From assembly GCA_905479105.1 (NCBI GenBank), contig CAJQLE010000004.1:248001-312000 (forward strand): DNA of 64,000 nt, written 5' to 3'. This document shows, one piece after another, positions 33,674-50,668 of this stretch. The translations under genes were made by a program, and so were the position numbers. Source of the DNA: an uncultured Flavobacteriales bacterium (lineage in GTDB: Bacteria > Bacteroidota > Bacteroidia > Flavobacteriales_G > Salibacteraceae). The first letter of the stretch is position 1. Each line of letters opens with the position of its first letter. Under the pieces are notes generated by a model that worked only from the letters and a program-made list of their open reading frames with translations, was not told the DNA's origin and did no database searches.

Positions 33674-34021
33674 TTATTTCTGAATAATTATTGACGTCCA
33701 AAATATAAATGCATTTAAAACCATTAAAAGAAAAGCTGGCAAAGAAATCCAAACGCTATCTTTTAAATTTATTCTAACAATGAGGCCAGCGAACATAAGT
33801 AATGCAAGACCCAGAGATGAAATGATAAGAAAAAAATTAAATTTAAGGCCCACTAATAAACCTAGAGCTCCAATAATTTCTAGCAAAACGGTTGTTAATC
33901 CTATTTTCTCTAAACCAAACCTCTTAAACTCGTCTTTCATATGTGGTGTCCTAAAATATGCAAAAGCATATGCGAAAAAGGAGAAACTTGATATTAAAGC
34001 AGCTATCGTAATCAAAGACAT
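33674..34021 (-). CDS. DoxX-like small membrane protein
   Basis: A 115-residue protein with four predicted membrane helices and a DoxX-like short polar loop after the first helix (MKDEFKRFGLEKIG). DoxX-type proteins are associated with redox or thiol stress; the role here is unknown. A paralogue lies 9 nt upstream on the same strand with the same layout (a KEFEQFGLSDL loop), so the two probably form a heteromeric pair in one operon. Confidence 0.7.
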   Translation of the reverse strand: MSLITIAALISSFSFFAYAFAYFRTPHMKDEFKRFGLEKIGLTTVLLEIIGALGLLVGLKFNFFLIISSLGLALLMFAGLIVRINLKDSVWISLPAFLLMVLNAFIFWTSIIIQK

Positions 34022-34030
34022 CCTTATTTA

Positions 34031-34366
34031 TTAAATTGAATAATATGCTATAAAAGCACTCAGAACCAAAAGAATAAGAGATGGTAAATGTTTAATAAAT
34101 GGATTACTTATTTTTAAATGAAAATATTGAGCACCAATCATTAATAGACCCATAAGAATAGAAGGAATAAGAACTAATGAGGAATACCAAACACCCACAA
34201 TAAGCAGTGTAGCTAAAGATATTTTTGTTGCTCCTACAATATTTCGCGTTAAATCGCTCAATCCGAATTGTTCGAACTCTTTTAAAACATTATGAAATCT
34301 AAAAGTCCAAACATATACAACAGACATTGCAACAATAATTTGGGATAAATTTATTAAACTTTCCAT
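34031..34366 (-). CDS. DoxX-like small membrane protein (paralogue)
   Basis: A 111-residue, four-helix membrane protein with the loop FHNVLKEFEQFGLSDLTRN after helix 1, paralogous to the next gene. The lengths and helix positions match, but the sequences are well diverged, so the duplication is old or the pair was acquired together. It is first in a two-gene operon inside the AT-rich accessory patch. Confidence 0.7.
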   Translation of the reverse strand: MESLINLSQIIVAMSVVYVWTFRFHNVLKEFEQFGLSDLTRNIVGATKISLATLLIVGVWYSSLVLIPSILMGLLMIGAQYFHLKISNPFIKHLPSLILLVLSAFIAYYSI

Positions 34367-34657: not shown

Positions 34658-34699
34658 TTTATTTGGAGGTTAAAGTAACGGCAACGCATAACAGGAATT

Positions 34700-34804
34700 G
34701 GATATAAGTTAAAGAAGGCGATGGGTCATTCAAGCCTGAATGTGTCCCTGACTTACTTAAGGCGCATAGAGGTAGCTGAATTAACCGAGGAGTACATGTT
34801 AGCA
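34700..34804 (+). pseudogene. C-terminal remnant of a tyrosine recombinase
   Basis: About 30 codons read LKKAMGHSSLNVSLTYLRR followed by IEVAELTEEYM. This is the last part of a tyrosine recombinase: the LGH-type histidine and the catalytic Tyr in TYLR. The rest of the enzyme is absent, and the frame then runs on through DNA antisense to the hydrolase gene. It is a scar of an earlier mobile element in this patch, distinct from the complete integrase at 49,325. Confidence 0.65.
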
Positions 34805-34814
34805 AATATTTTTT

Positions 34815-35930
34815 TTATTGGATCACTATTTTCAAGCCTTCTTGCTGTCCTAAATTCAAAAAGTATATACCACTTGGAAGGCCTTCAATATTTATCACAT
34901 CACCTGAACTTATAGTTCCACGTTTAACTTTCTGCCCAAATGAATCATGTATTATGTATTCGATATTGTGACTTTCCGAAAACTCAACTTGAAAATAACC
35001 TGTGGCTGGGTTAGGGATAATCTTGGTTTTTAAATCAGAATACTCTTTATTAGCAATGGATAATGTTGGACAATCAAGATTCGTTTGATATGTTGATGCC
35101 GTTGAATTTTGATTTAGTGAATCAGTAAGGAGCATATTGCAATAACAAGGATTATTATCTGCATATAGGGTTAACCATGCATAAGCAACATTTCCAATAT
35201 CTCCATTTACTGTATTTGGATTTAAAACGTTGTAATGGTCACCACCTGAAATTTCAAACAGTAATTTGTGGGTTGAACTTGGCGTATAATCATAATGTAA
35301 ATCTGCGTGTTGAAATGGTGGGGCTACTTGGTCAAATTGACCGCTAAATATTAAAACAGGTACTGAATGATCAAGGTCGGACTGAATTAAAGTAGCTGCG
35401 TTTAACCAAGGAGTAAAAACAATTATCGATTCTATAGTAGTATCCATTTTTGCTGCTAATTGTGCACCTCCTCCCCCCATAGACCAACCTCCAACGGAAA
35501 TATTACTAGTGTCAATATGTTGATACAAAGGTGAGTTTACTCTGTTGTTTTCTTTTCTAATAGATTTCATCCCATCTAAAAGTGCCAGTGCTCTCAGATT
35601 TGGAAGTTCATATATACTGTTTGTTCCGATTGTCATGCATATAAATCCTCTAGTAGCAAAATATCTCGCCCATTTTGAAACAGATTCCTGTGTTGCGGTA
35701 AAACCTGGTACTAAAACAATACTTTTCAGATTAGATTTTCCATTAAGAGGATAATATAATGTTGCACCCAAATAATCAGGTCCATCTCGAAGACCATCGG
35801 ATTCAAATAATGAGTCTATGGGTAAAGGAGTGAAATTTGAAACAGTTTGAACTGATATTGATTCACATTGACTATATGCATATTGCGATAAAGTCAAAAT
35901 TAGTAGAAGCGAAATTGTTTTTTCCTTCAT
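34815..35930 (-). CDS. Secreted polyester (PET) hydrolase-like serine hydrolase with T9SS tail
   Basis: A 371-residue protein: signal peptide (1-20), alpha/beta hydrolase (~25-290), T9SS sorting domain (~300-371, IIPNPATGYFQVEF). The catalytic domain resembles bacterial cutinase/PET hydrolases: oxyanion segment VPGFTATQESVSKWA (Phe77 where IsPETase has Tyr), nucleophile GWSMGGGG (Ser150, Met151), TPW (Trp175), acid SGQFDQVAPP (Asp200) and GGDHYN (His232). CYC (262-264) and Cys287 may form disulfides. Known Bacteroidota PET esterases also carry a T9SS tail. Activity on a polyester is inference; dienelactone-hydrolase family is the safe label. It sits alone in the accessory patch. Confidence 0.85.
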   Translation of the reverse strand: MKEKTISLLLILTLSQYAYSQCESISVQTVSNFTPLPIDSLFESDGLRDGPDYLGATLYYPLNGKSNLKSIVLVPGFTATQESVSKWARYFATRGFICMTIGTNSIYELPNLRALALLDGMKSIRKENNRVNSPLYQHIDTSNISVGGWSMGGGGAQLAAKMDTTIESIIVFTPWLNAATLIQSDLDHSVPVLIFSGQFDQVAPPFQHADLHYDYTPSSTHKLLFEISGGDHYNVLNPNTVNGDIGNVAYAWLTLYADNNPCYCNMLLTDSLNQNSTASTYQTNLDCPTLSIANKEYSDLKTKIIPNPATGYFQVEFSESHNIEYIIHDSFGQKVKRGTISSGDVINIEGLPSGIYFLNLGQQEGLKIVIQ

Positions 35931-35979: not shown

Positions 35980-36588
35980 ATAGTGAAAATTGTAAATGAT
36001 GTTTATTGAGATGAGGCTCATTTCTTAATAAAAGTTACATCCTAGACGTCATATTTTGAACATTACAGGCATCGACAATCTGTAATTTGGAAAGTGTAAA
36101 CTTAGTTAGACATATTTATATCATCTAGGAGCTATGCTTACACTTTTTGATTTCATAAAAACAAATGACACCAAATTGCATCTTTTTCACCTTTTTTTGA
36201 TCTTTTTTTAGTGGTTTTTAGCTCAAAATACATCAATTCTCACACCAAACCAACTAAAACCTGAAATCTAAAAGCTAAACCATCAAATCACATCAGAGGG
36301 TGGGTTGTTCTAAATCGGCTTCCTGTTTTAGATATGGTTTCAAGGGTATAAATATATCCCTTTTTTAGTTGTTGAGCGCACCCTTGGTGAAAACCTTCTC
36401 TGCGCTTCTATCATCATAAACATTGATTAATAGTGTATTTGGTTTGAAAGATAAAACGTGAATGTACAGCGTTTACGGAGCATATTTTTAAGCTGTTGTT
36501 AGCGGTGGTACACTATTTTTAGATTAAAAATTGCTTTTTTTGCTCAAAATATATTTATAATCACATATTTAATAGTCAACTTCATAGA
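35980..36588. other. AT-rich gene-poor stretch
   Basis: No gene recognised. A terminator-like hairpin (AAGGG...CCCTT followed by TTTTTT) lies at 36,343-36,367 on the plus strand without an obvious gene before it. Near 36,460-36,503, GTACAGC...GCTGTTGTTAGC pairs weakly and may be another decayed cassette border. Confidence 0.35.
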
Positions 36589-36849
36589 ATGAAACCAAAC
36601 GAAATTGCCACTCTATTTTCAGAGTACTTAGAAGAAGGGACCACGCCAAAAGGGATGAAGGTTCAGTCCTTTTTTAGTCATCTATCATCTTCGCAAAAGC
36701 GCTTGTTAGCGAATAATATTTCAAAGTCTTATGCTTTAAATTTACAAGCCGAGAAAGAGAAAGCTATATTACAAAGTGAAAAGAAAAAGGAGATATCCCA
36801 GCTCAAAAAGAGAGCTAAGGAATTAGGACTAATTATTTCAGCAAAATAG
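36589..36849 (+). CDS. Hypothetical 86-aa protein, basic helical tail
   Basis: A clear ATG frame of 86 residues with no recognised family. The first half (MKPNEIATLFSEYLEEGTT) looks helical; the second half (LQAEKEKAILQSEKKKEIS) is charged, probably a coiled coil, and ends in a basic segment. There is no signal peptide. It lies between two hairpin repeats like a one-gene cassette. A hairpin at 36,877-36,895 (CACC.TCC/GGA.GGTG) follows it, without a T-run. Confidence 0.5.
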   Translation: MKPNEIATLFSEYLEEGTTPKGMKVQSFFSHLSSSQKRLLANNISKSYALNLQAEKEKAILQSEKKKEISQLKKRAKELGLIISAK

Positions 36850-36923
36850 CAAAATAGTCGCTTTTAGATTTTGAGTCACCCTCCGTTGGAAGGTGTCGGA
36901 CTTTCGTATGTTTTTGAATTATC

Positions 36924-36975
36924 GTCAAAGGTTTGTATAAAAGGTCGGTTTAATGCCTTTTATACTTTGTTATAT
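36924..36975. repeat. attC-like hairpin repeat, copy 3
   Basis: A perfect 10-bp stem (GTATAAAAGG / CCTTTTATAC) with loop TCGGTTTAATG. The core and the following TTGTT are nearly identical to copy 1 at 33,583. The right box reads GTTATAT (GTTRRRY with one mismatch); the left box is degenerate. Confidence 0.5.
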
Positions 36976-37106
36976 GCTGGTTCTTCTTTTCGAATCAAAT
37001 CGCTAATAGCATCACAAAGTAAAAATAGAGTTTTACTCATCTATTAATAATGATATAGGGGGTTTTAAGTCTTTTAGTAGTGGTTTTGTAATCCTTTATT
37101 TATCGG

Positions 37107-37127
37107 TGGTTACTTTCCGATACAAAA
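37107..37127. other. Left attachment site (21-bp direct repeat)
   Basis: Contains TTACTTTCCGATACAAAA, identical over 21 bp to 50,648-50,668 at the end of mnmE. The matching copy encodes the last codons of MnmE, so this is the duplicated target left by integration. Confidence 0.85.
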
Positions 37128-37162
37128 AGTAATGCTGACTGAAAATCAGTTAGTTAATATAA

Positions 37163-37177
37163 AAAGGTACAAATAAG
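37163..37177. promoter_or_regulatory. Putative integrase arm site, left end
   Basis: AAAGGTACAAATAAG, an exact 15-bp match to 50,509-50,523 inside the other end of the island. Confidence 0.55.
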
Positions 37178-37203
37178 GGGCATTTGAGGCTAAAAAGCCT
37201 GTC

Positions 37204-37425
37204 CTAACAATTGCATCCAGAGCCGCCTGATTCCTGGATAGGTGGACAAGGATTCGTTCCATAACTGCAGTATACACAGCAATCACCCGCTTTTGGCTTG
37301 AGTATAGTTTTGCAGTTCTCGCATTCATAGAAGAATTGGCAAGAATCCGTTGGCATAGTTTCCAACTTTTGATGTCCACATTCAGGACAAGTAAGGGTCG
37401 TTTCTAAAGCTATCCTAACGTCCAT
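37204..37425 (-). CDS. Small Cys-rich protein of metal-resistance operons
   Basis: A 73-residue protein with CPECGH and CENC (a zinc-ribbon-like set), then GDCCVYCSYGTNPCPP, a motif I recognise from small proteins that recur in mercury and other metal resistance operons, and a Cys-rich end (GCNC). It probably binds metal in the cytosol; no enzyme activity is known. Its ATG touches the end of merTP (shared base 37,425), so it is the last gene of the arsR-merTP operon. A short AGGCT/AGCCT hairpin follows. Confidence 0.75.
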   Translation of the reverse strand: MDVRIALETTLTCPECGHQKLETMPTDSCQFFYECENCKTILKPKAGDCCVYCSYGTNPCPPIQESGGSGCNC

Positions 37426-38054
37426 CAGTCTTTAATTTTAATATCAGTTACAGTGTATCCTGTTTCAACCTCAATCGCTCTCTTCAACTCTTCTGGGCTT
37501 ATTTGCTCAGGGTCATATGTTGCGAACGCTGAACCCATCTCATAATTTGCTGATGCTGAGTCAACTGCTCCAGTCAATAAAAGCGCTGATTGGACATGAT
37601 TCTCGCAGCCAGTGCAAGTCATGCCCTCAATATTTATCGTTGCCTTTAGGTGATTTGACGAATTAGCAAACACATATTCCGATGATGGAGCTGGAAGCAG
37701 AGCGCCTGAATAATATGGGAAGGAAAACATCACAACCGATAGAGCAGCAATCGTCCACACAAATGATTTGGTTTGAAAGAATTTCTTCTTCGCTGGCACC
37801 TCGCAATTGCAATCATCCACAGCGGTTGGCTTATACGCCTCTCGAAAAGCAAAAGCTAATGCCAGGCCAGAGCCAATCATCAACCAGGGCCGCACAGGTT
37901 CGATCCATGAGAAAGTACTTGCAACTCCAGAAACTCCACTCAATAGAGCAACTAAAGGCCCTATACAGCAAAGAGACGAAGCAACTGCCGCTGTCAATCC
38001 AGCAATCGAAAGCATATTGCTTGTATGGTTATTCTCAGACTTTAGCTGCTTCAT
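37425..38054 (-). CDS. merTP: MerTP-like mercuric (metal) transporter
   Basis: A 209-residue fusion of MerT-like and MerP-like parts. Membrane helix 1 carries the vicinal cysteines SSLCCIGPL, two more helices follow, and the C-terminal HMA domain has MTCTGCENHVQ. Such proteins pass Hg(II) from the periplasm to the cytosol for reduction. No mercuric reductase (merA) is in the island, so the metal may differ or MerA may be elsewhere. The ATG at 38,054 overlaps the end of the arsR gene; the longer frame is rejected. Confidence 0.85.
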   Translation of the reverse strand: MKQLKSENNHTSNMLSIAGLTAAVASSLCCIGPLVALLSGVSGVASTFSWIEPVRPWLMIGSGLALAFAFREAYKPTAVDDCNCEVPAKKKFFQTKSFVWTIAALSVVMFSFPYYSGALLPAPSSEYVFANSSNHLKATINIEGMTCTGCENHVQSALLLTGAVDSASANYEMGSAFATYDPEQISPEELKRAIEVETGYTVTDIKIKD

Positions 38055-38406
38055 GATTGTTATGTTCAATGAACCTATCCAAGTAATCGACACATTTTTC
38101 GTCCAGGAAGTAGAATATAGTTTGAGCAACTCGTTTCTTTCTGACCAATCCGCCTTCGCTCAGTTTTTTAAGCTGTTGTGAAACCGCTGGAATGCTAATG
38201 TCCAAGACATCACTTAAATCACATACGCACATCTGGTTTCGGCTATGTAGCGTGTAGAGCAATTTTAGTCGTGTCTCATTGCCAAGTAATGAATATACCT
38301 CGGCAGCTGATTTAACCTGTCGGGTAATCGATTTCAAATCCTCCTTGCAATTGTCTATCAGCTCAGTGTCTGCATAAACCCTGATGCATGAGTTGTTCAG
38401 ATCCAT
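38035..38406 (-). CDS. ArsR/SmtB family metal-responsive repressor
   Basis: A 123-residue winged-helix repressor. The HTH region is NETRLKLLYTLHSR, with the metal site MCVCDL on the recognition-helix side (alpha3 type) and ISIPAVSQQLKKL as recognition helix. An extra N-terminal Cys (CIRVY) and DNCKEDL suggest the CadC/CmtR-like alpha3N set, which senses soft metals such as Cd, Pb or Hg. It heads the merTP operon and probably represses it from the inverted repeat at 38,428. Confidence 0.9.
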   Translation of the reverse strand: MDLNNSCIRVYADTELIDNCKEDLKSITRQVKSAAEVYSLLGNETRLKLLYTLHSRNQMCVCDLSDVLDISIPAVSQQLKKLSEGGLVRKKRVAQTIFYFLDEKCVDYLDRFIEHNNHEAAKV

Positions 38407-38427
38407 TGTCCAAAGATGGTAAAATGA

Positions 38428-38449
38428 TATTTAAGTAATTGCTTAAATA
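38428..38449. promoter_or_regulatory. Inverted-repeat operator upstream of arsR
   Basis: TATTTAAG-N6-CTTAAATA, perfect 8-bp arms 22 nt upstream of the arsR ATG. Size and AT content match ArsR-family operators. A second, wider pair, CCAAAGAT/ATCTTTGG (38,410 and 38,454), encloses it. Confidence 0.65.
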
Positions 38450-38491
38450 ACTAATCTTTGGTGTTATTGGAATACTGTTTTCATCAGCTGC

Positions 38492-38602
38492 CTAAAGTCT
38501 AAGATTGACCCCTCCATTAATCAGAAAGCCTTCGAGAGGTGCATAGATGTCTCTGAAAACAGGATTTGTAACAGTGGCTGAATAAACTGTGTTAAAGCGG
38601 GT
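38492..38602 (-). pseudogene. C-terminal fragment of a TonB-dependent receptor
   Basis: 36 codons and a stop read TRFNTVYSATVTNPVF then RDIYAPLEGFLINGGVNLRL. The ending (GGVNLRL-stop) and alternating pattern look like the last beta strands of a TonB-dependent outer-membrane receptor. A TAA precedes it immediately and nothing upstream continues it. It is probably debris from rearrangement inside the island. Confidence 0.4.
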
Positions 38603-38672
38603 TTATCTCTCATCAAGGAAGTTCTCGAAATTCAATTAGAACGAGAAATTCATTTTCCTCTACATTTGCCTC

Positions 38673-39149
38673 GTGCATCTGAAAAAGGCGCTTATATCAT
38701 CTATGCTGCTATTGGTTTACACCTTTAGTTTTGCACACGAGCTTATACCTCACTGCCATCATACATTTGGTAATGTGGGTAAATCGCATGTTCATGTCAT
38801 GAAGCATGAGCATCATGGTGAAGATGACCATCATCATGGTGAAGATGACCATTCGCACATTTCGCATAACGGACACCATGACGAAGGTTTAATCGATTTA
38901 TTGGTGTGTGTGTTGATTGAGACCGAGCACCCTGGCTCGGAAGGTGATCAACTCTTTTTTCTGCCCAAGACCGAGAACAATAAGCTCAATGATCGCTTGA
39001 AGGTGCAGTTTGCGAGTATCTTGACGATACTTTTCGATTTTTACGAGGACAACTCTGAGGTTACACCTCAACCAGACGTTAATGACTTCTATTCTTCGCC
39101 TTTTCTGGCGCATACTCCGCATCGCGGACCTCCCTCTATTTCTTGTTAA
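38673..39149 (+). CDS. Exported histidine-rich protein of the metal-efflux operon
   Basis: A 158-residue protein. From the GTG at 38,673 there is a signal peptide (HLKKALISSMLLLVYTFSFA) and then a His/Asp-rich stretch (HHGEDDHHHGEDDH, encoded by a near-perfect tandem repeat around 38,811-38,850). The rest is not recognised. Similar His-rich exported proteins precede CusA/CzcA genes in Bacteroidota and probably buffer metal in the periplasm. It lies 99 nt upstream of the pump gene. Confidence 0.7.
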   Translation: MHLKKALISSMLLLVYTFSFAHELIPHCHHTFGNVGKSHVHVMKHEHHGEDDHHHGEDDHSHISHNGHHDEGLIDLLVCVLIETEHPGSEGDQLFFLPKTENNKLNDRLKVQFASILTILFDFYEDNSEVTPQPDVNDFYSSPFLAHTPHRGPPSISC

Positions 39150-39248
39150 TAATCCGCGCTTGATCAGCTGATCAAGACGACCTATTCATGTTTTCTTTTC
39201 GGTCTACCGGAGAGAAGTTTTTCCATTCCTTTTAACAAGAAATTTATC

Positions 39249-42200
39249 ATGATTAATCAGCTTATCTCATTTTCGATCAATAATAAATTGATCATTGGTT
39301 TGCTCACCCTCGCCCTCATTTTTGCTGGGCTATGGAGCATAACCAAGGTTCCACTGGATGCCGTACCGGACATCACCAACAACCAGGTACAGGTCATTAC
39401 CCAAGCCCCAAATTTGGGCACGGAAGACATTGAGCAGTTTGTAACGTATCCAGTGGAAGTTGCGATGGCAAACCTTCCCGGAGTCGTTGAAATACGCTCA
39501 ATTTCTCGCTTCGGGCTTTCTGTGGTCACTATCGTTTTTGAAGACGATATGGACACCTATCTGCCGCGCCAGCTGGTATCCGAAAAACTCAATGAGGTCA
39601 AAGAAGAAATTCCACAAGGATTTGGGGAACTTTCATTAGGCCCGATTTCAACTGGATTGGGTGAGATCTATCAATACACGTTGAAGGTCGATTCTGCGCA
39701 CCAAAATGATTATTCCTTGTCTGAACTGCGAACTATGCAAGACTGGATCGTGGCCAGACAAATGGCGATGGTTCAGGGTGTAGTTGAAATCAATGCCATT
39801 GGTGGCAAGATCAAGCAATATGAAGTAGCGGTTGATCCCGATGAACTTAAAGCCATTGGCCTTACTATTTCCGACATCTACGCTGCCCTTGAAAAGAACA
39901 ACCAAAATACGGGAGGAGCTTACATTGAAAAAGACCATTACGCCAATTTCATTCGTGGTGAAGGGCTGGCGCGCACTCTGAGCGATATTGAAAACATCGT
40001 GGTGAAAAACACGAATGGACTTCCTATTTCTATCAAGGATGTGGCTACGGTACAATTTGGGTCTGCAGTGCGCTATGGTGCATTGACCCAAGATGGTGAG
40101 GGCGAAGTCGTAGGCGGATTAATCATGATGCTTAAAGGTGCCAATTCCAATGATGTGATCACTCGTGTGAAGGATCGTATGGAGGAAATTCAGAAATCAC
40201 TGCCTGAAGGCGTCATCATCGAACCATTGCTTGATCGAAGCAAGTTAATCGCCAAAACCACTGGCACAGTTAGTACCAACCTGATGGAAGGCGCATTGAT
40301 CGTTATTTTCATTTTGGTTTTTTTACTTGGCAATTGGAGGGGTGGATTGATTGTGGCATCGACCATTCCCCTTTCCCTGTTGTTCGCGTTTATCCTGATG
40401 AACGTATTTGACGTGTGGGCAAATCTGATGAGTCTCGGAGCGATTGACTTTGGGATCATCGTGGATGGGGCGGTAATTATTGTTGAAGGCACCGTTTTTC
40501 TGCTGCACGGAAAGCTCGTGAACAATCCATCAATTGCTGCTGGTGACCGCGACAGGATCGCTTTCACCGCTTCCAGCAAAATGATGAACTCTGCCTTTTT
40601 TGGACAACTTATCATTCTCATTGTTTTTGTCCCCATTCTGGCTTTACAGGGCGTGGAAGGAAAGATGTTTAAACCAATGGCACTCACCTTTATGTTTGCC
40701 ATGATCGGTGTTATGCTCTTGTGCTTGACCTATGTTCCGATGATGTCGGCCTGGTTTCTTAGAGTGAATAAAAAGGAATCGTCCTCTTGGGGTGATCGTT
40801 TTGTGATCTGGATAGAGAATCTTTATGCGCCAACTTTGGGCAATGCCTTGAAACATGCAAAATGGGTAGTTGCCTCTGCTATGGTCTTGTTCGGTATCGC
40901 AGCCTTTACCTTTTCTAAGATGGGCGGGGAATTTGTTCCTCAGCTCGATGAAGGGGACATTGCCTTTCATGCCATTCTCAAGCCGGGTAGTTCCTTGTCT
41001 GAAATGATCGAAACCACGACCAAGATTGAGGGAATCGTAAAAGAGAAATTTCCAGAGGTGCAGAAGATCGTGAGCAGAATAGGTGTAGCAGAAGTGCCTA
41101 CCGACCCCATGCCGATGGACTTAGCTGATATTTTCGTGATCCTCGCCCCTCAGGAAGAATGGGTGACCACCGATTCAAAGGAAGAGTTGGTGGAAAGGAT
41201 GAAGGAAGAGTTGGAGAAAATCCCCGGAGTCAACTACGAGTTTACCCAGCCCATTGAAATGCGATTCAATGAACTACTCGAAGGGGTGCGAGAAGACATC
41301 GCCATCAAGCTGTATGGAGAGGACATAAACACGCTGGCAACAAAGGCAGAAGAAATCTCAAAAATTATCGCTGGAACACAGGGTATCGGAGATATGCGCG
41401 TGGAAGCGACTACAGGGCTACCCCAAATTTCGGTGGTTTATAACCGACACAAGCTCGCGCAGTACGGCATTGATGTGGAAAGCCTAAACACCCTTATCCA
41501 AACGGCTTTTGCAGGAGGTAAGGCAGGCGTGATTTTTGAAGGTGAAAAACGGTTTGATCTTGTTGTCAGGCTGGAAGCGGAACACCGAAAGAGCATTGAC
41601 AACCTAAAAAATCTCTATGTCAATTTACCCAATGGCTCGCAGATACCACTTCGTGAGGTGGCCGACATAAGCTATCAACCCGGCCCGATGCAGATCAGCC
41701 GGGACAATACGAATCGGAGAACGTACGTTGGGATTAATGTACGTGGACGCGACATCGAATCGCTGGTTCAAGAGATTCAGAAAAAGTTGGATGCTGAGCT
41801 TGAACTTCCTTCAGGTTATTACATCCGTTACGGGGGTGCTTTTGAAAACCTTGAACGTGCCAACAAGCGATTGCAGGTGGTAGTTCCGGTGGCTTTGGCG
41901 CTAATCTTCCTGCTCATCTTTTTCGCATTGAAATCATTTAAACAATCCATTATGATCTACATGGCTATTCCTCTTGCCGCTATCGGTGGTGTCTTCTCGC
42001 TGTGGCTGCGTGATATGCCGTTTAGTATATCTGCTGGTGTCGGTTTTATTGTACTCTTTGGCGTGGCTGTGTTGAATGGCCTGGTCCTGATCAGCGCATG
42101 GAATGAATTGAAAGCAGATGGCATCGCAGAGTTAAATGAGCGTATTCAGTTAGGTGCAAAAAGACGTATCCGCCCTATTCTATTAACTGCTTTAACGGAT

Positions 42201-43622
42201 GTATTGGGCTTCTTACCAATGGCTATCTCTACTTCAGCAGGAGCAGAGGTTCAACAACCACTTGCCACCGTGGTGATTGGAGGAATGATCACCGCTACGT
42301 TGCTCACCCTTTTTGTTCTCCCAATCTTATACCATTGGGTAGAAACGAGAAGTGCAAGAGTTCCGCTGTCAAACGCCGTGGCAACGTTGCTCTTGCTGAT
42401 TTGTATGTCTACACTTTCAACTATGGAATTGAATGCGCAAACGGGATCAGCCAATACTGTCACTTCAGTTGAGGAAGCGCTTGAAATAGGTTTGGCAAAC
42501 AATGGCCACATTAGGATAGCCAAAGCCAACATCGAGTTACAACGACAGAGCAAAAAGGCCGCATTGGACATTGATAAAACCGATGTGGAGATTATATACG
42601 GACAATACAACAGTTTTGAGAATGATCTGGCTATAAATGTCAATCAACGCATTGCATTTCCAACGGTTTATCAAAATCAGCGGCAACTGGCCAATGAAAA
42701 TACTACGGGAGGACAATTGCAGCTCAACGTAAAACAAAATGAACTGAAGCGAAACATTCGAGAAAGCTGGTATGAACTGGCTTACCTGAATGAAAGAATG
42801 CAATTGCTTTTATATCAGGATTCCATTTTTGCGAAATTCCTACATGCAGCAACCATTCGCTATGAGACGAAGGCTACGAGCTACCTCGAAAAAGCGGCTG
42901 CCGAAACCCGTGTTATGGAGTTGGAGAACTCGCTGAAGATGCTTGATGCGGACATTATTATTCAGGAGCAGCAACTACGTGTATTGTTGAACGAGACCAC
43001 GGGCACGGTCTTTACTCCTGATCGTTTGGATGAGAGGTCGATTTCTGAAGAACAAGGTTCTAAAGCAATATCCTCCAATCCATTGTTGGCTTATGCAAAT
43101 CAACAAATTCAGATTGCAGAGGCTGGAAAAAAGCTACAGTCTTCTAAAATGCTTCCTGACCTTACATTGGGTTACTTTAACCAATCCTTAATAGGGAGTC
43201 CCTTGTCCGACCAACGTGGTGTTGCCACGTCTTTGGATCGTTTTTCAGGGGTTCAAGCTGGACTTTCCATTCCCTTGTTTTTTGGCTCATACAAGGCCGA
43301 TGTTCAATCAGCCAAATTGCTGACTGAGATGGCGCAATTCAATGCGGACTATTATCAAACAGTTCTTCAAGGAAGCCTGGACCAGCAACTTCAGGAAGTA
43401 CTAAAGCAACGCAATAGCTTGAATTACTATAAAAGCAAAGCAGTTCCTCAAGCTGAATTAATTATTGAAAACGCTCAAAGAAGCTTAGAAAGTGGAGCCA
43501 TTAACTACGTGGAATACTTCCAAAACCTTAATCAAGGTCTGGAACTAAAATTTAACTACCTCAACACACTAAACGAATACAACCAAGCAATTATAGACTT
43601 GGAATACCTCATTGGACAATAA
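39249..43622 (+). CDS. cusA: CusA/CzcA heavy-metal RND pump fused to a TolC-like channel
   Basis: 1457 residues. Residues 1-~1040 form an HME-RND pump: first helix ~10-30, two periplasmic loops, and TM4 motif DFGIIVDGAVIIVEG (~400-414) carrying the proton-relay acids. A hydrophobic stretch (~1045-1060, ending LNAQ) leads to a TolC/OMF-like coiled-coil region (~1065-1457, SVEEALEIGLANNGHIRIA; LNETTGTVFTPD). So inner-membrane pump and outer-membrane channel are one polypeptide, a layout known in Bacteroidota. It exports Cu/Ag or Zn/Co/Cd with the adaptor encoded 11 nt downstream. Confidence 0.93.
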   Translation: MINQLISFSINNKLIIGLLTLALIFAGLWSITKVPLDAVPDITNNQVQVITQAPNLGTEDIEQFVTYPVEVAMANLPGVVEIRSISRFGLSVVTIVFEDDMDTYLPRQLVSEKLNEVKEEIPQGFGELSLGPISTGLGEIYQYTLKVDSAHQNDYSLSELRTMQDWIVARQMAMVQGVVEINAIGGKIKQYEVAVDPDELKAIGLTISDIYAALEKNNQNTGGAYIEKDHYANFIRGEGLARTLSDIENIVVKNTNGLPISIKDVATVQFGSAVRYGALTQDGEGEVVGGLIMMLKGANSNDVITRVKDRMEEIQKSLPEGVIIEPLLDRSKLIAKTTGTVSTNLMEGALIVIFILVFLLGNWRGGLIVASTIPLSLLFAFILMNVFDVWANLMSLGAIDFGIIVDGAVIIVEGTVFLLHGKLVNNPSIAAGDRDRIAFTASSKMMNSAFFGQLIILIVFVPILALQGVEGKMFKPMALTFMFAMIGVMLLCLTYVPMMSAWFLRVNKKESSSWGDRFVIWIENLYAPTLGNALKHAKWVVASAMVLFGIAAFTFSKMGGEFVPQLDEGDIAFHAILKPGSSLSEMIETTTKIEGIVKEKFPEVQKIVSRIGVAEVPTDPMPMDLADIFVILAPQEEWVTTDSKEELVERMKEELEKIPGVNYEFTQPIEMRFNELLEGVREDIAIKLYGEDINTLATKAEEISKIIAGTQGIGDMRVEATTGLPQISVVYNRHKLAQYGIDVESLNTLIQTAFAGGKAGVIFEGEKRFDLVVRLEAEHRKSIDNLKNLYVNLPNGSQIPLREVADISYQPGPMQISRDNTNRRTYVGINVRGRDIESLVQEIQKKLDAELELPSGYYIRYGGAFENLERANKRLQVVVPVALALIFLLIFFALKSFKQSIMIYMAIPLAAIGGVFSLWLRDMPFSISAGVGFIVLFGVAVLNGLVLISAWNELKADGIAELNERIQLGAKRRIRPILLTALTDVLGFLPMAISTSAGAEVQQPLATVVIGGMITATLLTLFVLPILYHWVETRSARVPLSNAVATLLLLICMSTLSTMELNAQTGSANTVTSVEEALEIGLANNGHIRIAKANIELQRQSKKAALDIDKTDVEIIYGQYNSFENDLAINVNQRIAFPTVYQNQRQLANENTTGGQLQLNVKQNELKRNIRESWYELAYLNERMQLLLYQDSIFAKFLHAATIRYETKATSYLEKAAAETRVMELENSLKMLDADIIIQEQQLRVLLNETTGTVFTPDRLDERSISEEQGSKAISSNPLLAYANQQIQIAEAGKKLQSSKMLPDLTLGYFNQSLIGSPLSDQRGVATSLDRFSGVQAGLSIPLFFGSYKADVQSAKLLTEMAQFNADYYQTVLQGSLDQQLQEVLKQRNSLNYYKSKAVPQAELIIENAQRSLESGAINYVEYFQNLNQGLELKFNYLNTLNEYNQAIIDLEYLIGQ

Positions 43623-43633
43623 CATAAACAAAC

Positions 43634-44851
43634 ATGAAAACATATATAAAATTACTCGCGTTATTCATCATCACAGGACTATTGCTGGTGAGATGCAATA
43701 ATTCAGAACCTCAAGGCGAACACGATCACAAAGAGGCTGAACAACATGGACATCACGATCATGAACACGGAGAGGGTAGTGAAGAAGTAGTGCATTTATC
43801 GGAGGCACAATTTCATTCCCTTGGTTTGAAAGTGGATACCCTTCCTATGCGCTACATAGGTTCGTATGTAGAAGCCAACGGACAGTTGGAAGTCCCTCCG
43901 CAAAATGAAGCTGCCATCACTGCAATCATTGGTGCGAATATCACCAGAATAGAAGTTATCGAAGGAGATAAGGTAAACAAAGGGCAGGTTTTGGCTTACC
44001 TGAGTCATCCCGATCTGATTCGATTGCAAACCGACTATATCAATATCTGGAACCAACTACAATACCTCGAGAAAGAATATGAACGACAGAGTCGCCTTTT
44101 TGATGAAAAAGTGGGGTCGGGAAAAGAGCTGCAAAAAACAAAAGCAGATTATAAATCCGCCAAAGGAATGGTTAAAGGCCATGAAGCACAACTAAGACTG
44201 ATGGGAATTAGTCTGGATAAAATTCAGGAAGGTGAGATTTACGAACAGGTTGCAGTCGTGAGTCCTTTGGAAGGACATGTCAGATCGGTTGAGATTAAAA
44301 CGGGTCAGTACGTGCAACCACAAACCGAAATGTTTGAGGTGGTCAACATCGAGCACATCCATGCTGACCTGATGGTGTTCGAGAAAGATGTCCACAAGGT
44401 CAAAGAGGGTCAAAAAGTGCGATTTTCAGTGGAGTCGCTTCCAGGAAAACAAATGGAGGCGGTGATATATGCCGTGGGCAAATCGTTCGAGCAAGACCCG
44501 AAGGCCATTCACCTCCATGCAGAAATTGAAAACAAAGAAGGGCTGTTGCTTCCCGGTATGTATGTTCGGGGTCAAATTTTATCTGAAACGCATAGTGGAT
44601 TTGCACTACCTGAAACTGGTGTGGTCAGGGAAGGTAAAAAGCATTTCATATTCACCGCCCATTTGGAGGACAACAAAAATAGAACAGAATGGACCTTTGA
44701 GCCCGTGGAGGTTAGTATTGGGGCGAAGGAAGATGGTTGGGTGCAAATAAATCTAATGGAATCGCTATCAAAAGGTTCCAAAACCGCATGGAACAACGCC
44801 TACTATCTTATTGCTGAAATGAAGAAAGGCGAAGCTGAACACGAACATTAA
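43634..44851 (+). CDS. cusB: RND efflux periplasmic adaptor (CusB/CzcB)
   Basis: A 405-residue membrane-fusion protein. A lipoprotein signal (LLLVRC) is followed by a His-rich segment (HDHKEAEQHGHHDHEHGEG) that likely binds metal. The adaptor follows: barrel-sandwich halves (GANITRIEVIEGDKVNKGQ and SPLEGHVRSVEIKTGQYVQ) around a coiled coil, then beta-barrel and membrane-proximal domains. It bridges the pump domain to the channel domain of the preceding fusion protein. The spacing of 11 nt indicates one operon. Confidence 0.93.
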   Translation: MKTYIKLLALFIITGLLLVRCNNSEPQGEHDHKEAEQHGHHDHEHGEGSEEVVHLSEAQFHSLGLKVDTLPMRYIGSYVEANGQLEVPPQNEAAITAIIGANITRIEVIEGDKVNKGQVLAYLSHPDLIRLQTDYINIWNQLQYLEKEYERQSRLFDEKVGSGKELQKTKADYKSAKGMVKGHEAQLRLMGISLDKIQEGEIYEQVAVVSPLEGHVRSVEIKTGQYVQPQTEMFEVVNIEHIHADLMVFEKDVHKVKEGQKVRFSVESLPGKQMEAVIYAVGKSFEQDPKAIHLHAEIENKEGLLLPGMYVRGQILSETHSGFALPETGVVREGKKHFIFTAHLEDNKNRTEWTFEPVEVSIGAKEDGWVQINLMESLSKGSKTAWNNAYYLIAEMKKGEAEHEH

Positions 44852-44867
44852 TTTAAGTCTATCAAGT

Positions 44868-45467
44868 ATGAGTTTCTATCAAATAATACTGCCAATATTC
44901 ACCATAGTATATCTGCTTCAGGTATTTGTGATTCAAAGTTGGATTCAATGGAAAAAAACGGGGATCAAACCATATGTCTTTGGTAATACTGATAGCCCAC
45001 ATGACTATTGCGGTAAAATGTATCGCTTAATGGTAATCGGAACATGGGTGTCAATCGCATTGTATTCATTTTTCCCAGATCAGTATAGCTACATTCTGCC
45101 ATTCTGGTACTTGGAGTTTGAATGGATGCAGCATTTAGGAGCTGGCTTAGCGATTTTATCATTTATATGGATAATAATTGCTCAGAATCAAATGGCTAAA
45201 TCCTGGCGAATAGGCATAGACTACTCTGAAACAACAACGCTCAAGACTAATGGCCTTTTTAAAGTATCTCGGAATCCAATATTTCTTGGGGTTGTTGTTT
45301 CATACTTAGGTACTTTCTTGATTATTCCAAACTCGCTGAGTCTTACTATACTTCTTGTTACATATGTCGTAATTCAGATTCAAGTTAGGCTCGAAGAGGA
45401 GTATTTGAAAACCTCCCATGGGAAGGCGTATTCAGACTACATGGATGATGTAAGGCGATGGATTTGA
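44868..45467 (+). CDS. Isoprenylcysteine carboxyl methyltransferase-like membrane protein
   Basis: A 199-residue integral membrane protein of the ICMT/PEMT superfamily: several helices, then GLFKVSRNPIFLGVV and RLEEEYLKTSHGKAYSDYM, the conserved SAM-site region of the family. In bacteria the substrate is mostly unknown; members recur in metal-efflux operons, as here between cusB (16 nt) and czcD (34 nt). Confidence 0.8.
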   Translation: MSFYQIILPIFTIVYLLQVFVIQSWIQWKKTGIKPYVFGNTDSPHDYCGKMYRLMVIGTWVSIALYSFFPDQYSYILPFWYLEFEWMQHLGAGLAILSFIWIIIAQNQMAKSWRIGIDYSETTTLKTNGLFKVSRNPIFLGVVVSYLGTFLIIPNSLSLTILLVTYVVIQIQVRLEEEYLKTSHGKAYSDYMDDVRRWI

Positions 45468-45501
45468 TGATTGAGACGGTAAGAAACATTATTGTATAGC
45501 C

Positions 45502-46377
45502 ATGGGACATAATCATTCACACAATCACAGCACGGGTAATATCAAGGTTGCATTTTTCATCAATCTCGCTTTTACCGTTATCGAATTGGTTGGTGGAATG
45601 TTCACCAATAGCATTGCTATTGTTTCCGATGCATTGCACGACCTGGGCGACAGCATCGCATTGGGTTTAGCTTGGTATTTGGAAAAAAAAGCTTCAAGTG
45701 AAAATGCCAGCGCAACATTCACGTTTGGATACGCACGTTTCCGATTACTCGGAGCCTTGATCAATGCCTTGATTCTTGTCGGAGGTTCCATTTACATCAT
45801 CATCGAAGCCGTGGGTCGTTTTCAAAACCCAGAACCTGTCAAATCACTTTGGATGATGGGAATAGCTATCATAGGCGTGGCCGCGAACAGCTATGCCGCA
45901 TGGCGTACAAGCGGTTCAAAATCGCTGAACGAAAAGGTAATTAGTTGGCACCTGCTTGAGGATGTTTTGGGATGGGTTGCTGTATTGATCGTGTCGATTA
46001 TTCTTCAATTTAAAGACTGGTATTTTCTCGACCCAGCCCTTTCTATTGGAGTAACGGTATTCATCCTTGTTGGTGTGGGTCGCAGGTTGTGGGAGACAAT
46101 CCATTTGCTTTTACAAGGTGTGCCGTCCAATATTAAGTTGGCTGAAATAGAATCCCTCCTTAGTAATGTTGAACAAGTGAAGTCTGTACATCATACACAC
46201 GTGTGGTCGCTTGACGGCGAGCAACACGTCTTGACAACCCATATTGTTATTGACGGGGGCACCGAGTTATCTGTTGCGAATGAAGTCAGGGAAAATTGTA
46301 TTTCAGTCTTGCATCAATTCAATTTTACTCATCATACGATCCAAGTTGAATCCGCAGGAGTAGAGTGCATGAACTGA
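45502..46377 (+). CDS. czcD: Cation diffusion facilitator (CzcD/ZitB type)
   Basis: A 291-residue CDF transporter. A His-rich start (MGHNHSHNHS), six membrane helices with the TM2 metal site SDALHDLGDS and the TM5 region (DPALSIGV), then a cytosolic domain with HHTHVWSLDGEQHV. It exports Zn2+, Co2+ or Cd2+ from cytosol to periplasm in exchange for protons, complementing the trans-envelope pump. It is the last gene of the plus-strand cargo operon. Confidence 0.93.
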   Translation: MGHNHSHNHSTGNIKVAFFINLAFTVIELVGGMFTNSIAIVSDALHDLGDSIALGLAWYLEKKASSENASATFTFGYARFRLLGALINALILVGGSIYIIIEAVGRFQNPEPVKSLWMMGIAIIGVAANSYAAWRTSGSKSLNEKVISWHLLEDVLGWVAVLIVSIILQFKDWYFLDPALSIGVTVFILVGVGRRLWETIHLLLQGVPSNIKLAEIESLLSNVEQVKSVHHTHVWSLDGEQHVLTTHIVIDGGTELSVANEVRENCISVLHQFNFTHHTIQVESAGVECMN

Positions 46378-46481
46378 AAGCTATACCCATTGATTAATAG
46401 TATAGTATTATTTGGACAATCGCTTTTATGAATTTAAAATGTGTTAATCAAATTCCAGAATGAATGATCCACTCAAACAAT

Positions 46482-47576
46482 TCAGGAGAGTTTAGTGTTT
46501 ATACACTCTTCGAGTAAATGTCTCAGATGCATAGGAAGTGCATAACCTGTTAAAGTTTCACCTGTCGATTCATTAACCCAATCGCATGCTTGAGTTGAAT
46601 ACTCCCACTTCTCATAATTATTGACCCAATTAGATAGGGTTGATTTATTAGTTTGGTTAAGAACGTTAAATCCAAATCGATCAAATAGTCTTTTTCCTTG
46701 CATTGCTGAAAAGATGTTGTGCAACGCACTGGCGTAGATCGTATGATCTTCTGGCAGACGACTCTTTTTTTTCAGGTCGGGTTCTGTGAAAATCTTACTT
46801 CCATATTTGATGGTTTCAATAAGTGCGTGTTCAAGATCATTAATCTTACGGATGTCTTGAGCTGCTGGGTTAGTGTACTTGTATTTATTGTAGTTACAAT
46901 TCGCTTTTTGGATTGGTCTCCATTGCTCAATCCATTCTTTTCGTAATAGGTGAGCCACTTCAGCATTTGGAACTATAATATGGAAGTGAGGGTTGTACGT
47001 CTTCTTGATCGGGTTGAAGTTGCATTCCAAAGATTTTACACCGATTAGTTTAATCTCGTTTCCACGTTGATGCCGTTTTTTGCATCGTCCATGAATAAGG
47101 TTGAAGGCCTTGTACATTTTCTTCACCCATTCATCTAATTTTTCTGCCTTACAGGCCTTAACGGTGAGGGTGACAAAATGTGGGTCTTCCCATTGAGAAA
47201 TTGTGGTATAGTACTTATTAATTATTTCAGCTTTTCTTATGGCAGCGCAGATGGTACAAAATCTGTTTTTGCAATACTTTCCATAGATCCTATTATTGGA
47301 AATCGTCACTTCATTTTGACAGTGAAATGCGTTCCAGTACTGTTTCGCCCTATCATATTCTCCATTTGCATTTGCTATGTCAATCAGACTAAGGACCATT
47401 CTATTTGTTATGGTCTTCCTCTTGGCCCTCTTATTCAAAGATGCATTGTCGTTCAAATCAGTTCCATTCCCTAAAATCAGTGTATAGGGCAGAGTAGAGG
47501 CACTCTTTGCTGTCCCACTTTGTGCTAATGTATAGATTGATCCTTCCGAAGAGGACCTATTATCCTGATGTCTCAA
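46482..47576 (-). CDS. HUH-type (rolling-circle) replication initiator, Rep_1-like
   Basis: A 364-residue protein. A Cys cluster (YCKNRFCTICAAIRKAE, 101-117) is followed by the three HUH motifs: HFVTLTVKA (133-141), the HxH in YNPHFHIIVP (197-199), and a probable nicking Tyr in IETIKYGSKI (Y258, K261). Such proteins nick an origin to start rolling-circle replication. In the island it could amplify the excised circle or nick for mobilisation. The HTH gene lies 3 nt upstream. Confidence 0.82.
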   Translation of the reverse strand: MRHQDNRSSSEGSIYTLAQSGTAKSASTLPYTLILGNGTDLNDNASLNKRAKRKTITNRMVLSLIDIANANGEYDRAKQYWNAFHCQNEVTISNNRIYGKYCKNRFCTICAAIRKAEIINKYYTTISQWEDPHFVTLTVKACKAEKLDEWVKKMYKAFNLIHGRCKKRHQRGNEIKLIGVKSLECNFNPIKKTYNPHFHIIVPNAEVAHLLRKEWIEQWRPIQKANCNYNKYKYTNPAAQDIRKINDLEHALIETIKYGSKIFTEPDLKKKSRLPEDHTIYASALHNIFSAMQGKRLFDRFGFNVLNQTNKSTLSNWVNNYEKWEYSTQACDWVNESTGETLTGYALPMHLRHLLEECINTKLS

Positions 47577-47579
47577 AAC

Positions 47580-47906
47580 CTATCGCTTAGTTTTCTGCAG
47601 ATAGGAATCTGCTTCCTGGTCTAACTCAGAATTGGTTTTGATGCGACCCTGCTTCAGGTAGTCCATCAGCTCGTAATTAGAGAAGTAGAGACGTTTACTG
47701 CGTTTCATTACAGGTAACTCGCCTTTATTCACTTTGCTGTAAATTGTTGGGACAGAAAGACTGAGAAACGCAGCTGCCTCTTGGACAGTTAGCAGTTCTT
47801 CTTTTTCTGGATTGGAATCAGTCTCAACGTTTTTTTCGTTGAGCGTAATCAGTAGGCTTTCGATGCTACCTAATCGCTCTTCAATACTTTGAAATGGATT
47901 TTCCAT
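47580..47906 (-). CDS. Excisionase-like helix-turn-helix protein
   Basis: A 108-residue protein. The N-terminal ~35 residues are a predicted coiled coil (QSIEERLGSIESLLITLNEK). The core LLTVQEAAAFLSLSVPTIYS and NKGELPVMKRSKRLYF is an HTH_17/MerR-like excisionase fold. It probably binds island DNA to direct excision or control rep, whose gene is 3 nt downstream. Confidence 0.85.
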   Translation of the reverse strand: MENPFQSIEERLGSIESLLITLNEKNVETDSNPEKEELLTVQEAAAFLSLSVPTIYSKVNKGELPVMKRSKRLYFSNYELMDYLKQGRIKTNSELDQEADSYLQKTKR

Positions 47907-48005
47907 TGCTCAATAATTTTGTTTTATTGGGCAATTCTATAGCTGGAAATTACGGGTAAAAAGGTGGGTAAAAAGGTATTTGGATTTGTTACCTCTTTGT
48001 TTATA

Positions 48006-49328
48006 TCAGCGTTTTAGAGCCTTTGCTAAATCGGGCGAATTTTCAAAGTCTTTAATGCATCGTACAATGGTTAGAAAATCCTCATCAGTGGAAAATTGCT
48101 TTTCTGACAGATCTCGATGAATTTCACCCAATACAATGGCAGTTCTTGTCTTAGTTCTCTTACGCAATCGAATGAGTTTAAGGGGCAAATCATAAGGTTG
48201 ATCCTCAAAGTAAGACGCGATTAGATTACAAATACAATGCAAATCGCGTTCGCTCCTAAAGGTGTACTTCCAACCTTTGTTTTTGTCCATAGATTCAAAT
48301 CTCTTTCTGATTTGGTCATACATTGATGATAATTCGGTTTGGTCATCTGCCTTTTCTGAGCCAGTTGCAGCTTGGACTATCGGTGTAATAAGGCCAATGA
48401 ATCTTATTTCATCGCGCAACCATTGCTTGACCATTTTTCGGTACTGGGTTTGCTCGTCCCTTGCATTACTTGCGTATCCTTCTGATAGCTGAACTTTGCG
48501 TTCTTCCATTATCATCTCCAGCCTAAGTCTATCAGGTTCATTGAGCTGTCCAGATTTCTTCAATGAATATGTATTAATCTCTGTGAGCAGTTTATTCGTG
48601 ACCGCGATCAGAGCATCCACTAACGACTCTTTCGTATGAAAGGTTACAGTGGTCTTTCCTGAGTACTTGTTTTTATGGTGGACTTCTTTAATTATTGGTA
48701 ATTGCTTTTCAAACTTCTCTTTCAATGGCTGAAATACGGAAAGATCAAATGGAAAGGCTGAAATCCACTTTTGATAAGCGGAATGCAGAACATTAAGATC
48801 AGTTTGCGAACCTACTTCTGAGGTGGAATAGTACCGCTCATTAATCTCTTGGAGCAAAGTGGCTCTTTTTTCTTTGGATTGAATGCATGATGAATCTGAA
48901 ATGAAGTGAACTACATGGTTCATGTATCGTTCTGCTCCAAGATTAGGATGACCGAAACTGTCATTGTTATGATCTATGTAGTCAATGATCTCTTGTTGCC
49001 ATTTTTCGGAGTCTATCTGCGACTCAATAAAGTGTTCAGTCTGTATCGACTGAATCAAAATTTTATGGACTAAATCTGGATAGGCCTTATGCTTATCCCA
49101 ACCTCTTGTTTCAAACAGTTTGCGATGCTGCTCACAACAGTTTGGCAGTTTCTCATACCAATCTTGAACCCGATGTTGAAGGTCACTATGTGCCTCGCAA
49201 CATTCTGGAAACCGCTTTCCTGTTTCTTCATCTTCTGGGAGTTTGAATCCATCCAAAGGTTTGACTGTATAATGACCCACGAATAAATTGTCGCCACTAA
49301 ATTTCATGAAAGGCTCTTTATGACTCAT
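48006..49328 (-). CDS. Unknown 440-aa island protein with paired CCExH motifs
   Basis: A 440-residue soluble protein of no family I can name. The N-terminal region has two similar segments, FPECCEAHSDLQHRVQDWYE and LPNCCEQHRKLFETRGW, each with CCExH, suggesting metal binding. The rest looks alpha-helical and charged, with a basic patch (KLIRLRKRTKTRT) near the C-terminus. Its ATG overlaps the integrase stop (ATGA), so it is coupled to the integrase. It may assist recombination or maintenance; that is inference from position. Confidence 0.8.
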   Translation of the reverse strand: MSHKEPFMKFSGDNLFVGHYTVKPLDGFKLPEDEETGKRFPECCEAHSDLQHRVQDWYEKLPNCCEQHRKLFETRGWDKHKAYPDLVHKILIQSIQTEHFIESQIDSEKWQQEIIDYIDHNNDSFGHPNLGAERYMNHVVHFISDSSCIQSKEKRATLLQEINERYYSTSEVGSQTDLNVLHSAYQKWISAFPFDLSVFQPLKEKFEKQLPIIKEVHHKNKYSGKTTVTFHTKESLVDALIAVTNKLLTEINTYSLKKSGQLNEPDRLRLEMIMEERKVQLSEGYASNARDEQTQYRKMVKQWLRDEIRFIGLITPIVQAATGSEKADDQTELSSMYDQIRKRFESMDKNKGWKYTFRSERDLHCICNLIASYFEDQPYDLPLKLIRLRKRTKTRTAIVLGEIHRDLSEKQFSTDEDFLTIVRCIKDFENSPDLAKALKR

Positions 49329-50467: not shown

Positions 50468-50480
50468 ATCTATGAAATGC

Positions 50481-50539
50481 GGTACAATAATTTGTACCTC
50501 GTTTCACGAAAGGTACAAATAAGAAGAGAATCGGTACAA
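50481..50539. promoter_or_regulatory. GGTACAA repeat cluster (integrase arm sites or promoter control)
   Basis: GGTACAA occurs at 50,481, 50,512 and 50,533, plus inverted TTGTACC at 50,492, making a perfect palindrome GGTACAA-TAAT-TTGTACC. The copy at 50,509-50,523 (AAAGGTACAAATAAG) is repeated at the other end of the island. It lies between the integrase gene and attR. Confidence 0.6.
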
Positions 50540-50647
50540 AATAAACAACCAACAACGATGACTAAACAATCAGGTGTAAATTTATTGTGCTATAGAACCC
50601 ATTGTTTGTAGTGGTTTTAGCTTGTTTTTTATTGTTGATGTTTTGCT

Positions 50648-50668
50648 TGGTTACTTTCCGATACAAAA
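50648..50668. other. Right attachment site within mnmE 3' end
   Basis: The 21-bp repeat identical to 37,107-37,127. It contains the mnmE stop and the codons for the C-terminal CIGK motif, so mnmE stays intact after integration. Confidence 0.85.

Follow-up and report, generated by a model that had tools for sequence, protein, structure and literature searches.

The closest described relatives of the enzyme reported here are PET27 (Aequorivita sp.) and PET30 (Kaistella jeonii; PDB entry 7PZJ, deposited as ‘Lipase’), two bacteroidetal PET esterases with a T9SS domain (PMC8767016). All of PET27–PET30 hydrolyse PCL, BHET and Impranil, while within this set PET is depolymerised by PET27 and PET30 only (PMC8767016). 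The substrate motif Phe-Met-Trp has been described in PET27 and Cut190, and its counterpart in PET30 is Phe-Met-Tyr; PET28 and PET29 do not depolymerise PET even though their motif is that of PET27 (PMC8767016). Activity of IsPETase lies 4.7-fold above that of PET27 and about 253-fold above that of PET30.

Clusters of attC sites without an integrase are termed CALINs. Integrons are listed for Bacteroidota (PMC8618304), and a large survey names one complete integron in Bacteroidetes proper, that of Salinibacter ruber (PMC9024848). A literature search of limited extent, and hence weak as evidence, found nothing linking integron cassettes with PETases or polyesterases. Here we describe a bacteroidetal esterase gene in a 64-kb window (the whole stretch of 64,000 nucleotides that was analysed) and compare both the enzyme and its surroundings with these systems.

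A T9SS-tailed esterase of the PET30-type clade

An initial annotation had read the gene as a PET-hydrolase-like secreted esterase with a T9SS tail, and profile searches bear this out. The protein (Table 1) comprises a probable signal peptide (about residues 1–20), a PF12740 ‘PETase’ domain (Pfam, residues 53–279, 6.7e-44, 150.7 bits against a cut-off of 28, covering profile positions 39–256 of 263) and a T9SS type A sorting domain (residues 304–371), the last matching Por_Secre_tail (Pfam, 1.2e-9, residues 304–365) and TIGR04183 (NCBIfam, 3.7e-10). The top phmmer match among all PDB sequences is 7PZJ/PET30 (1.9e-88), and since this alignment spans residues 12–368, the T9SS tail is aligned too. 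Foldseek comparison of an AF2 model with the PDB returned 7PZJ first (3.5e-26) and IsPETase next, the model itself being mediocre (mean pLDDT 61.7, from a five-sequence alignment). The host genome holds a single copy of the esterase, all remaining matches to the query being T9SS tails alone; because it also encodes several T9SS-tailed proteins and a GldM homologue, we infer that T9SS export of the esterase is plausible.

For residue-level comparison, the esterase was aligned with 7PZJ, IsPETase, LCC, Ple628, CtPL and LipIAF5-2, among others; the IsPETase and LCC sequences used are identical to the PDB chains. Alignment with 7PZJ, IsPETase and LCC gives the catalytic triad as S150, D200 and H232. 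Every motif of the initial annotation, which named no strand, occurs in the order and at the position that it gave: the oxyanion segment GFT (G76-F77-T78), the nucleophile segment GWSMGGGG (G148-W-S150-M151-G-G-G-G, in which GWSMGG represents the G-x-S-x-G motif), TPW (T173-P174-W175), Asp200, His232 and the late cysteines (C262, C264 and C287), which are common to PET30. F77 occupies the alignment column of the IsPETase oxyanion Tyr, a replacement that had also been proposed, and F77, M151 and W175 make up a Phe-Met-Trp substrate motif, in line with the Phe-Met-(Trp/Tyr/Ala) pattern of the PET27/PET30 clade. The second disulfide of IsPETase (C203–C239, beside the active site) is absent, Gly197 and Asn234 standing at those columns.

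Identity is 44% to PET30 and 29% to IsPETase, with a range of 28–29% over IsPETase and LCC. An unrooted tree of 12 sequences, from which PET27 was left out, places the esterase, PET30 and four Bacteroidota homologues in one group (100/100), split from IsPETase, LCC, Ple628 and CtPL. This agrees with the proposal that T9SS-tailed bacteroidetal enzymes are its closest kin; by Pfam score, the esterase does not belong to the dienelactone-hydrolase family. The comparison by alignment and structure that had been suggested covers PET30 and IsPETase directly and PET27 through its published motif. Judged by its sequence, the esterase is a new member of the known T9SS-exported PET30-type clade, and it enlarges a small clade of exported polyesterases with few characterised members.

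With PET30 the esterase shares whole-length homology including the T9SS tail, the triad, the Phe oxyanion residue, the CYC...C cysteines and the lack of an IsPETase-type active-site disulfide, but it has Trp175, as does PET27, where PET30 has Tyr178; the Phe-Met-Trp pocket is common to the esterase and PET27. Moreover, Tyr233 stands where PET30 and IsPETase have Ser after the catalytic His, and the loop after Trp175 is five residues longer than in PET30. These two differences suggest that substrate specificity may differ from that of PET30. Both are found also in the nearest homologue, from MOX_bin70 (57% identity in the catalytic region), which the tree joins to the esterase at 100/99; the pair forms a sub-branch with an altered cleft that should be useful for specificity tests. 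IsPETase, LCC and the other type I–II PET hydrolases (PF12740) share fold family and catalytic residues with the esterase but differ in their low identity to it, its T9SS tail, its Phe for Tyr and its separate clade. PET93 and PET94 (Maribacter/Arenibacter) are, like the clade considered here, secreted Bacteroidota esterases, with some PET activity, but they are not part of the PET27/PET30 cluster and carry no PorC domain (PMC13188925). In the MOX_bin70 protein (L009:6001–7113), His replaces the family Tyr/Phe at the oxyanion/aromatic position (Phe77 column; PGHSAT), a possible change of specificity.

Table 1 Features of the esterase locus and of the neighbouring 13.5-kb element, in window coordinates
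Feature	Position	Strand	Basis
PET-hydrolase-like secreted esterase, 371 aa	34815..35930	-	ORF with ATG start; Pfam, NCBIfam and PDB matches
Probable Sec signal peptide, codons 1-20, MKEKTISLLLILTLSQYAYS followed by QC	35871..35930	-	read from sequence by inspection
T9SS sorting domain (Por_Secre_tail/TIGR04183; PNPATG...), codons 304-371 and stop	34815..35021	-	HMM
attC-like site 1, 36 nt past the DoxX-pair stop codon; AAC/GTT core and hairpin, conserved TTTTAATG loop	33563..33638	+	leave-out covariance model R2, E=4.8e-9 in 1.1 Mb; covariation
attC-like site 2, weak and decayed, ending 2 nt from the esterase start codon	35932..36004	+	R2, E=0.041 in 1.1 Mb, 3.7e-4 in surrounding 10 kb
attC-like site 3	36915..36991	+	leave-out model R2, E=1.1e-5 in 1.1 Mb
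attC-like half-core, 9 nt, GTTAGCAAA (TTTGCTAAC in gene direction, right after the esterase stop)	34798..34806	+	sequence match
C-terminal fragment (~33 codons) of 302-aa tyrosine integrase	34691..34798	+	congener homology search
Dispersed repeat, ~190 nt	36167..36359	+	nhmmer 6.6e-52 (copy itself among training sequences); alignment
DoxX_2-like membrane protein, second of tandem pair	33674..34021	-	PF13564 6.6e-7
DoxX_2-like membrane protein, first of tandem pair	34031..34366	-	PF13564 2.5e-10
Left att repeat of 13.5-kb element, TGGTTACTTTCCGATACAAAA	37107..37127	+	perfect 21-bp direct repeat
Right att repeat, at 3' end of mnmE (50651-52021)	50648..50668	+	perfect 21-bp direct repeat

attC-like sites and an integron-like locus

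The esterase sits in an AT-rich patch (33.5–37.0 kb) bounded by attC-like hairpins, in which the AAC and GTT cores and the loop are conserved and the stems vary by compensatory changes. Across seven sequences of the family, 93.8% of cells are paired, double changes occur in 7 of 16 pairs, and the covariation score is 0.443 as against 0.156 in shuffled alignments (0/500 shuffles). The covariance model R2 was built only from sites outside the window; besides the sites in the patch, it detects an untrained site between two secreted esterase genes elsewhere in the genome (L021:16602–16692, 1.1e-5), and it found no site in 400 kb of control sequence from the same genome. In four arrays, most sites either overlap the stop codon of the preceding gene or come shortly after it, and they precede the following start by 2–48 nt; polarity is constant except at two genes (the ORF at 36589–36849 and L065:1729–2283). 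Counts of attC-like sites and of the repeat described below cover about 0.9–1.3 Mb of the 2.79-Mb genome. Two simpler searches were discarded: a core/stem-rule scan gave 78 matches in 64 kb, too many by chance, and was replaced by the homology and covariance models, and a near-exact hairpin pattern matched only the window copy in the genome and was too strict. An Rfam search of the patch gave no match. The ORF at 36589–36849 (plus strand, 86 aa) has no Pfam match and runs opposite in polarity to the other patch genes.

At C3:231.6–236.1 kb (L021:14645–19121), a Xer/IntI-like integrase of 405 aa precedes two genes for secreted PHB-depolymerase-like esterases and one for a T9SS protein, with attC-like sites between the genes. 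One of these esterases has a clear PHB-depolymerase match (3.5e-10), and the other, which carries a T9SS tail, a weak one (0.0024). The integrase passes NF040815 ‘site-specific tyrosine recombinase/integron integrase’; against TIGR02249 it reaches 223.6 bits, under the cut-off of 265, and it has 14 residues where the model has about 56, so that the IntI-specific extra domain is absent (about 40 residues short).

The likeness to integron cassettes and CALIN arrays therefore lies in structured attC-like sites with AAC/GTT cores at the 3' ends of genes, in their fixed polarity and in an array that adjoins a tyrosine recombinase elsewhere in the genome, whereas the differences are that this sole candidate integrase falls below the IntI family cut-off and has no IntI-specific domain, and that no integrase is found at the esterase locus itself. 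It is quite possible, although we put this forward tentatively, that we are dealing with a Bacteroidota genus whose integron-like system, with short (~60–75 nt) attC-like sites and a Xer-type integrase devoid of the IntI-specific domain, gathers genes for secreted hydrolases, namely the T9SS polyester-hydrolase-like gene described here and the two PHB-depolymerase-like esterases beside the C3 integrase. If true, extracellular (poly)esterases would have a means of capture that surveys based on IntI overlook. The attC-like packaging is less expected than the enzyme itself, and it offers a testable route by which such genes could pass between Bacteroidota, a phylum with hardly any complete integrons reported.

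Origin of the esterase gene

The esterase was not found in any of 12 congeners, and within the order 4 of 42 genomes carry it, counting this one; scans across the class and the phylum gave 3/395 and 1/395, both including this genome and both lower bounds, few candidates having been scored per genome. As the patch is bounded by attC-like sites and the esterase is absent from the 12 congeners, the gene is probably an integron-type cassette with fragments of decayed mobile elements next to it. Horizontal acquisition is well supported, and in this the initial annotation, which had placed the gene in a horizontally acquired patch, was right, except that the patch is not the integrase-bearing island described below. 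Its further suggestion that the trait is mobile holds for past acquisition; as a cassette, the gene may still be mobile.

Several details speak against the cassette reading. The site on the start side is weak, and on the 3' side of the esterase the DoxX pair comes before the next clear attC-like site is reached. A complete attC site of its own was not found after the gene, where the 9-nt half-core, at best a half-site, is cut by the integrase fragment. In gene direction this half-core is the core that also opens the attC-like site L021:14645–14720 of the chromosomal integron-like locus. Each strand of the window holds one copy of this 9-mer, the reverse-complement copy lying at 10763, and the half-core coincides with the point at which homology to the integrase fragment starts.

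That fragment belongs to a 302-aa tyrosine integrase that is intact at C3:175.0–175.9 kb of the same genome and in congeners. Searches for an integrase remnant with Pfam, PHROGs and plasmid tblastn gave nothing convincing, and it was identified instead through the intact copies in congeners. There the ~190-nt repeat directly follows the integrase gene; here the esterase separates the two. The integrase and its 3' repeat recur genus-wide, at C3:161–176 kb (L065, L113), L066 and L068–L074, with many truncated copies between accessory genes.

An alternative interpretation is that this integrase/repeat family brought the esterase, the attC-like hairpins being incidental. A gap of 17 nt separates the end of the integrase 3' fragment from the esterase stop, the distance from the esterase start to the repeat upstream is 237 nt, the two blocks are adjacent in congeners, and at one locus (L068) a single gene is flanked by two copies of the integrase 3' end. 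We consider this unlikely, though worth keeping in mind, because the hairpins recur beside the Xer/IntI-like integrase, where no copy of the 302-aa element was detected, because they show cassette-like spacing and polarity, and because the junction with the integrase end coincides with an attC-like core. On the preferred reading, the gene would have arrived horizontally, probably as an integron-type cassette, at a hot spot beside mnmE and apart from the metal island, and the patch would be a CALIN-like cluster whose arrangement a second mobile-element family disturbed and which adjoins that island, in an order of events that we reconstruct.

We caution against extending this origin to the enzyme family. 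In another genus of the same bacterial family, the esterase homologues of two genomes (G031, G033) share flanking genes and show no mobile features, with no matches to the repeat models around them, and no convincing attC-like sites lie near the other PETase homologues (L009, L055–L057); these observations argue that the enzyme family is not generally tied to mobility or cassettes. Carriage of the esterase by phages or plasmids was also considered and set aside: no relatives were found on viral contigs, and five plasmid records hold only partial relatives (58–64% of the query, tail uncovered) that are distant (29–34% identical).

Predicted function

We are fairly confident that, as a whole, the locus is best explained as encoding an exported serine esterase that was probably acquired as a cassette. 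The enzyme is most likely a promiscuous exported hydrolase of esters and aliphatic polyesters, whether natural or soft, a substrate range that we infer from PET27 and PET30. Export would proceed by the Sec signal peptide as far as the periplasm, and by the C-terminal T9SS signal across the outer membrane. T9SS signals are normally removed, and the enzyme is then anchored or released. In the mature alpha/beta-hydrolase domain, Ser150-His232-Asp200 would act with an oxyanion hole of Phe77 and Met151 and a Phe-Met-Trp substrate cleft on accessible ester bonds, both in short to medium esters and in soft aliphatic polyesters (cutin-, PCL- or PHA-like); by analogy with PET27 and PET30, PET might be a side substrate that is cleaved very slowly.

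An ordinary dienelactone-hydrolase or feruloyl-type esterase with no activity on polymers would account for the weak, sub-threshold Pfam matches to DLH and other alpha/beta hydrolases. This seems improbable, since DLH (PF01738) scores only 14.2 bits, under its cut-off of 21, against 150.7 bits for PF12740, and since the clade includes PET30, which is active on PCL, BHET and Impranil.

More improbable still is a true PET hydrolase whose selected role, as in Ideonella, would be the degradation of PET or other aromatic polyesters. Family membership, secretion and the Phe-Met-Trp pocket, as in PET27 and Cut190, would fit such an enzyme, but PET hydrolysis is not predictable from this motif because PET28 and PET29 share it and did not depolymerise PET, PET film included. 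The weak activities of PET27 and PET30 further lead us to judge that PET is not the preferred substrate, and a genome search, run without a positive control, gave no tannase-family (MHETase-type) match.

Integration hot spot and metal-efflux island

Congeners keep the same backbone around the locus, with mnmE on one side and a QSregVF_b gene, a YheT-like hydrolase and a DEAD helicase on the other, while the content of the mnmE to YheT interval differs per congener species (L048–L052). Related integrases lie downstream of mnmE in two congeners (64% identical to that of the window, and 76% identical over a 106-aa fragment). Conserved backbone, variable content and related integrases together mark the stretch following mnmE as a hot spot of integration throughout the genus.

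In the window, the interval holds an island (37107–50668) with a tyrosine integrase (49325–50467) and a Rep_1 replication protein (Pfam). That the esterase is cargo of this 13.5-kb metal-efflux island is highly improbable: a mere 1.2 kb separates the gene from the left end, and both are species-specific as far as sampled, but the 21-bp att repeats that bound the island exclude it, no third att copy occurs in the window with up to 5 mismatches allowed, and base composition is unlike (esterase GC3 0.215, the lowest among window genes >120 aa, against about 0.38–0.48 for island genes). Codon-usage deviation of the esterase is likewise high (z 4.3). By inspection, the island encodes an ArsR-type regulator, a MerT/HMA-like protein, a CzcA-type RND pump, a membrane-fusion protein and a CDF transporter. 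Within it, a 1457-aa ORF (39249–43622) seems to fuse, in one frame, an RND heavy-metal pump (CzcA/CusA-like) and a TolC-like outer-membrane channel.
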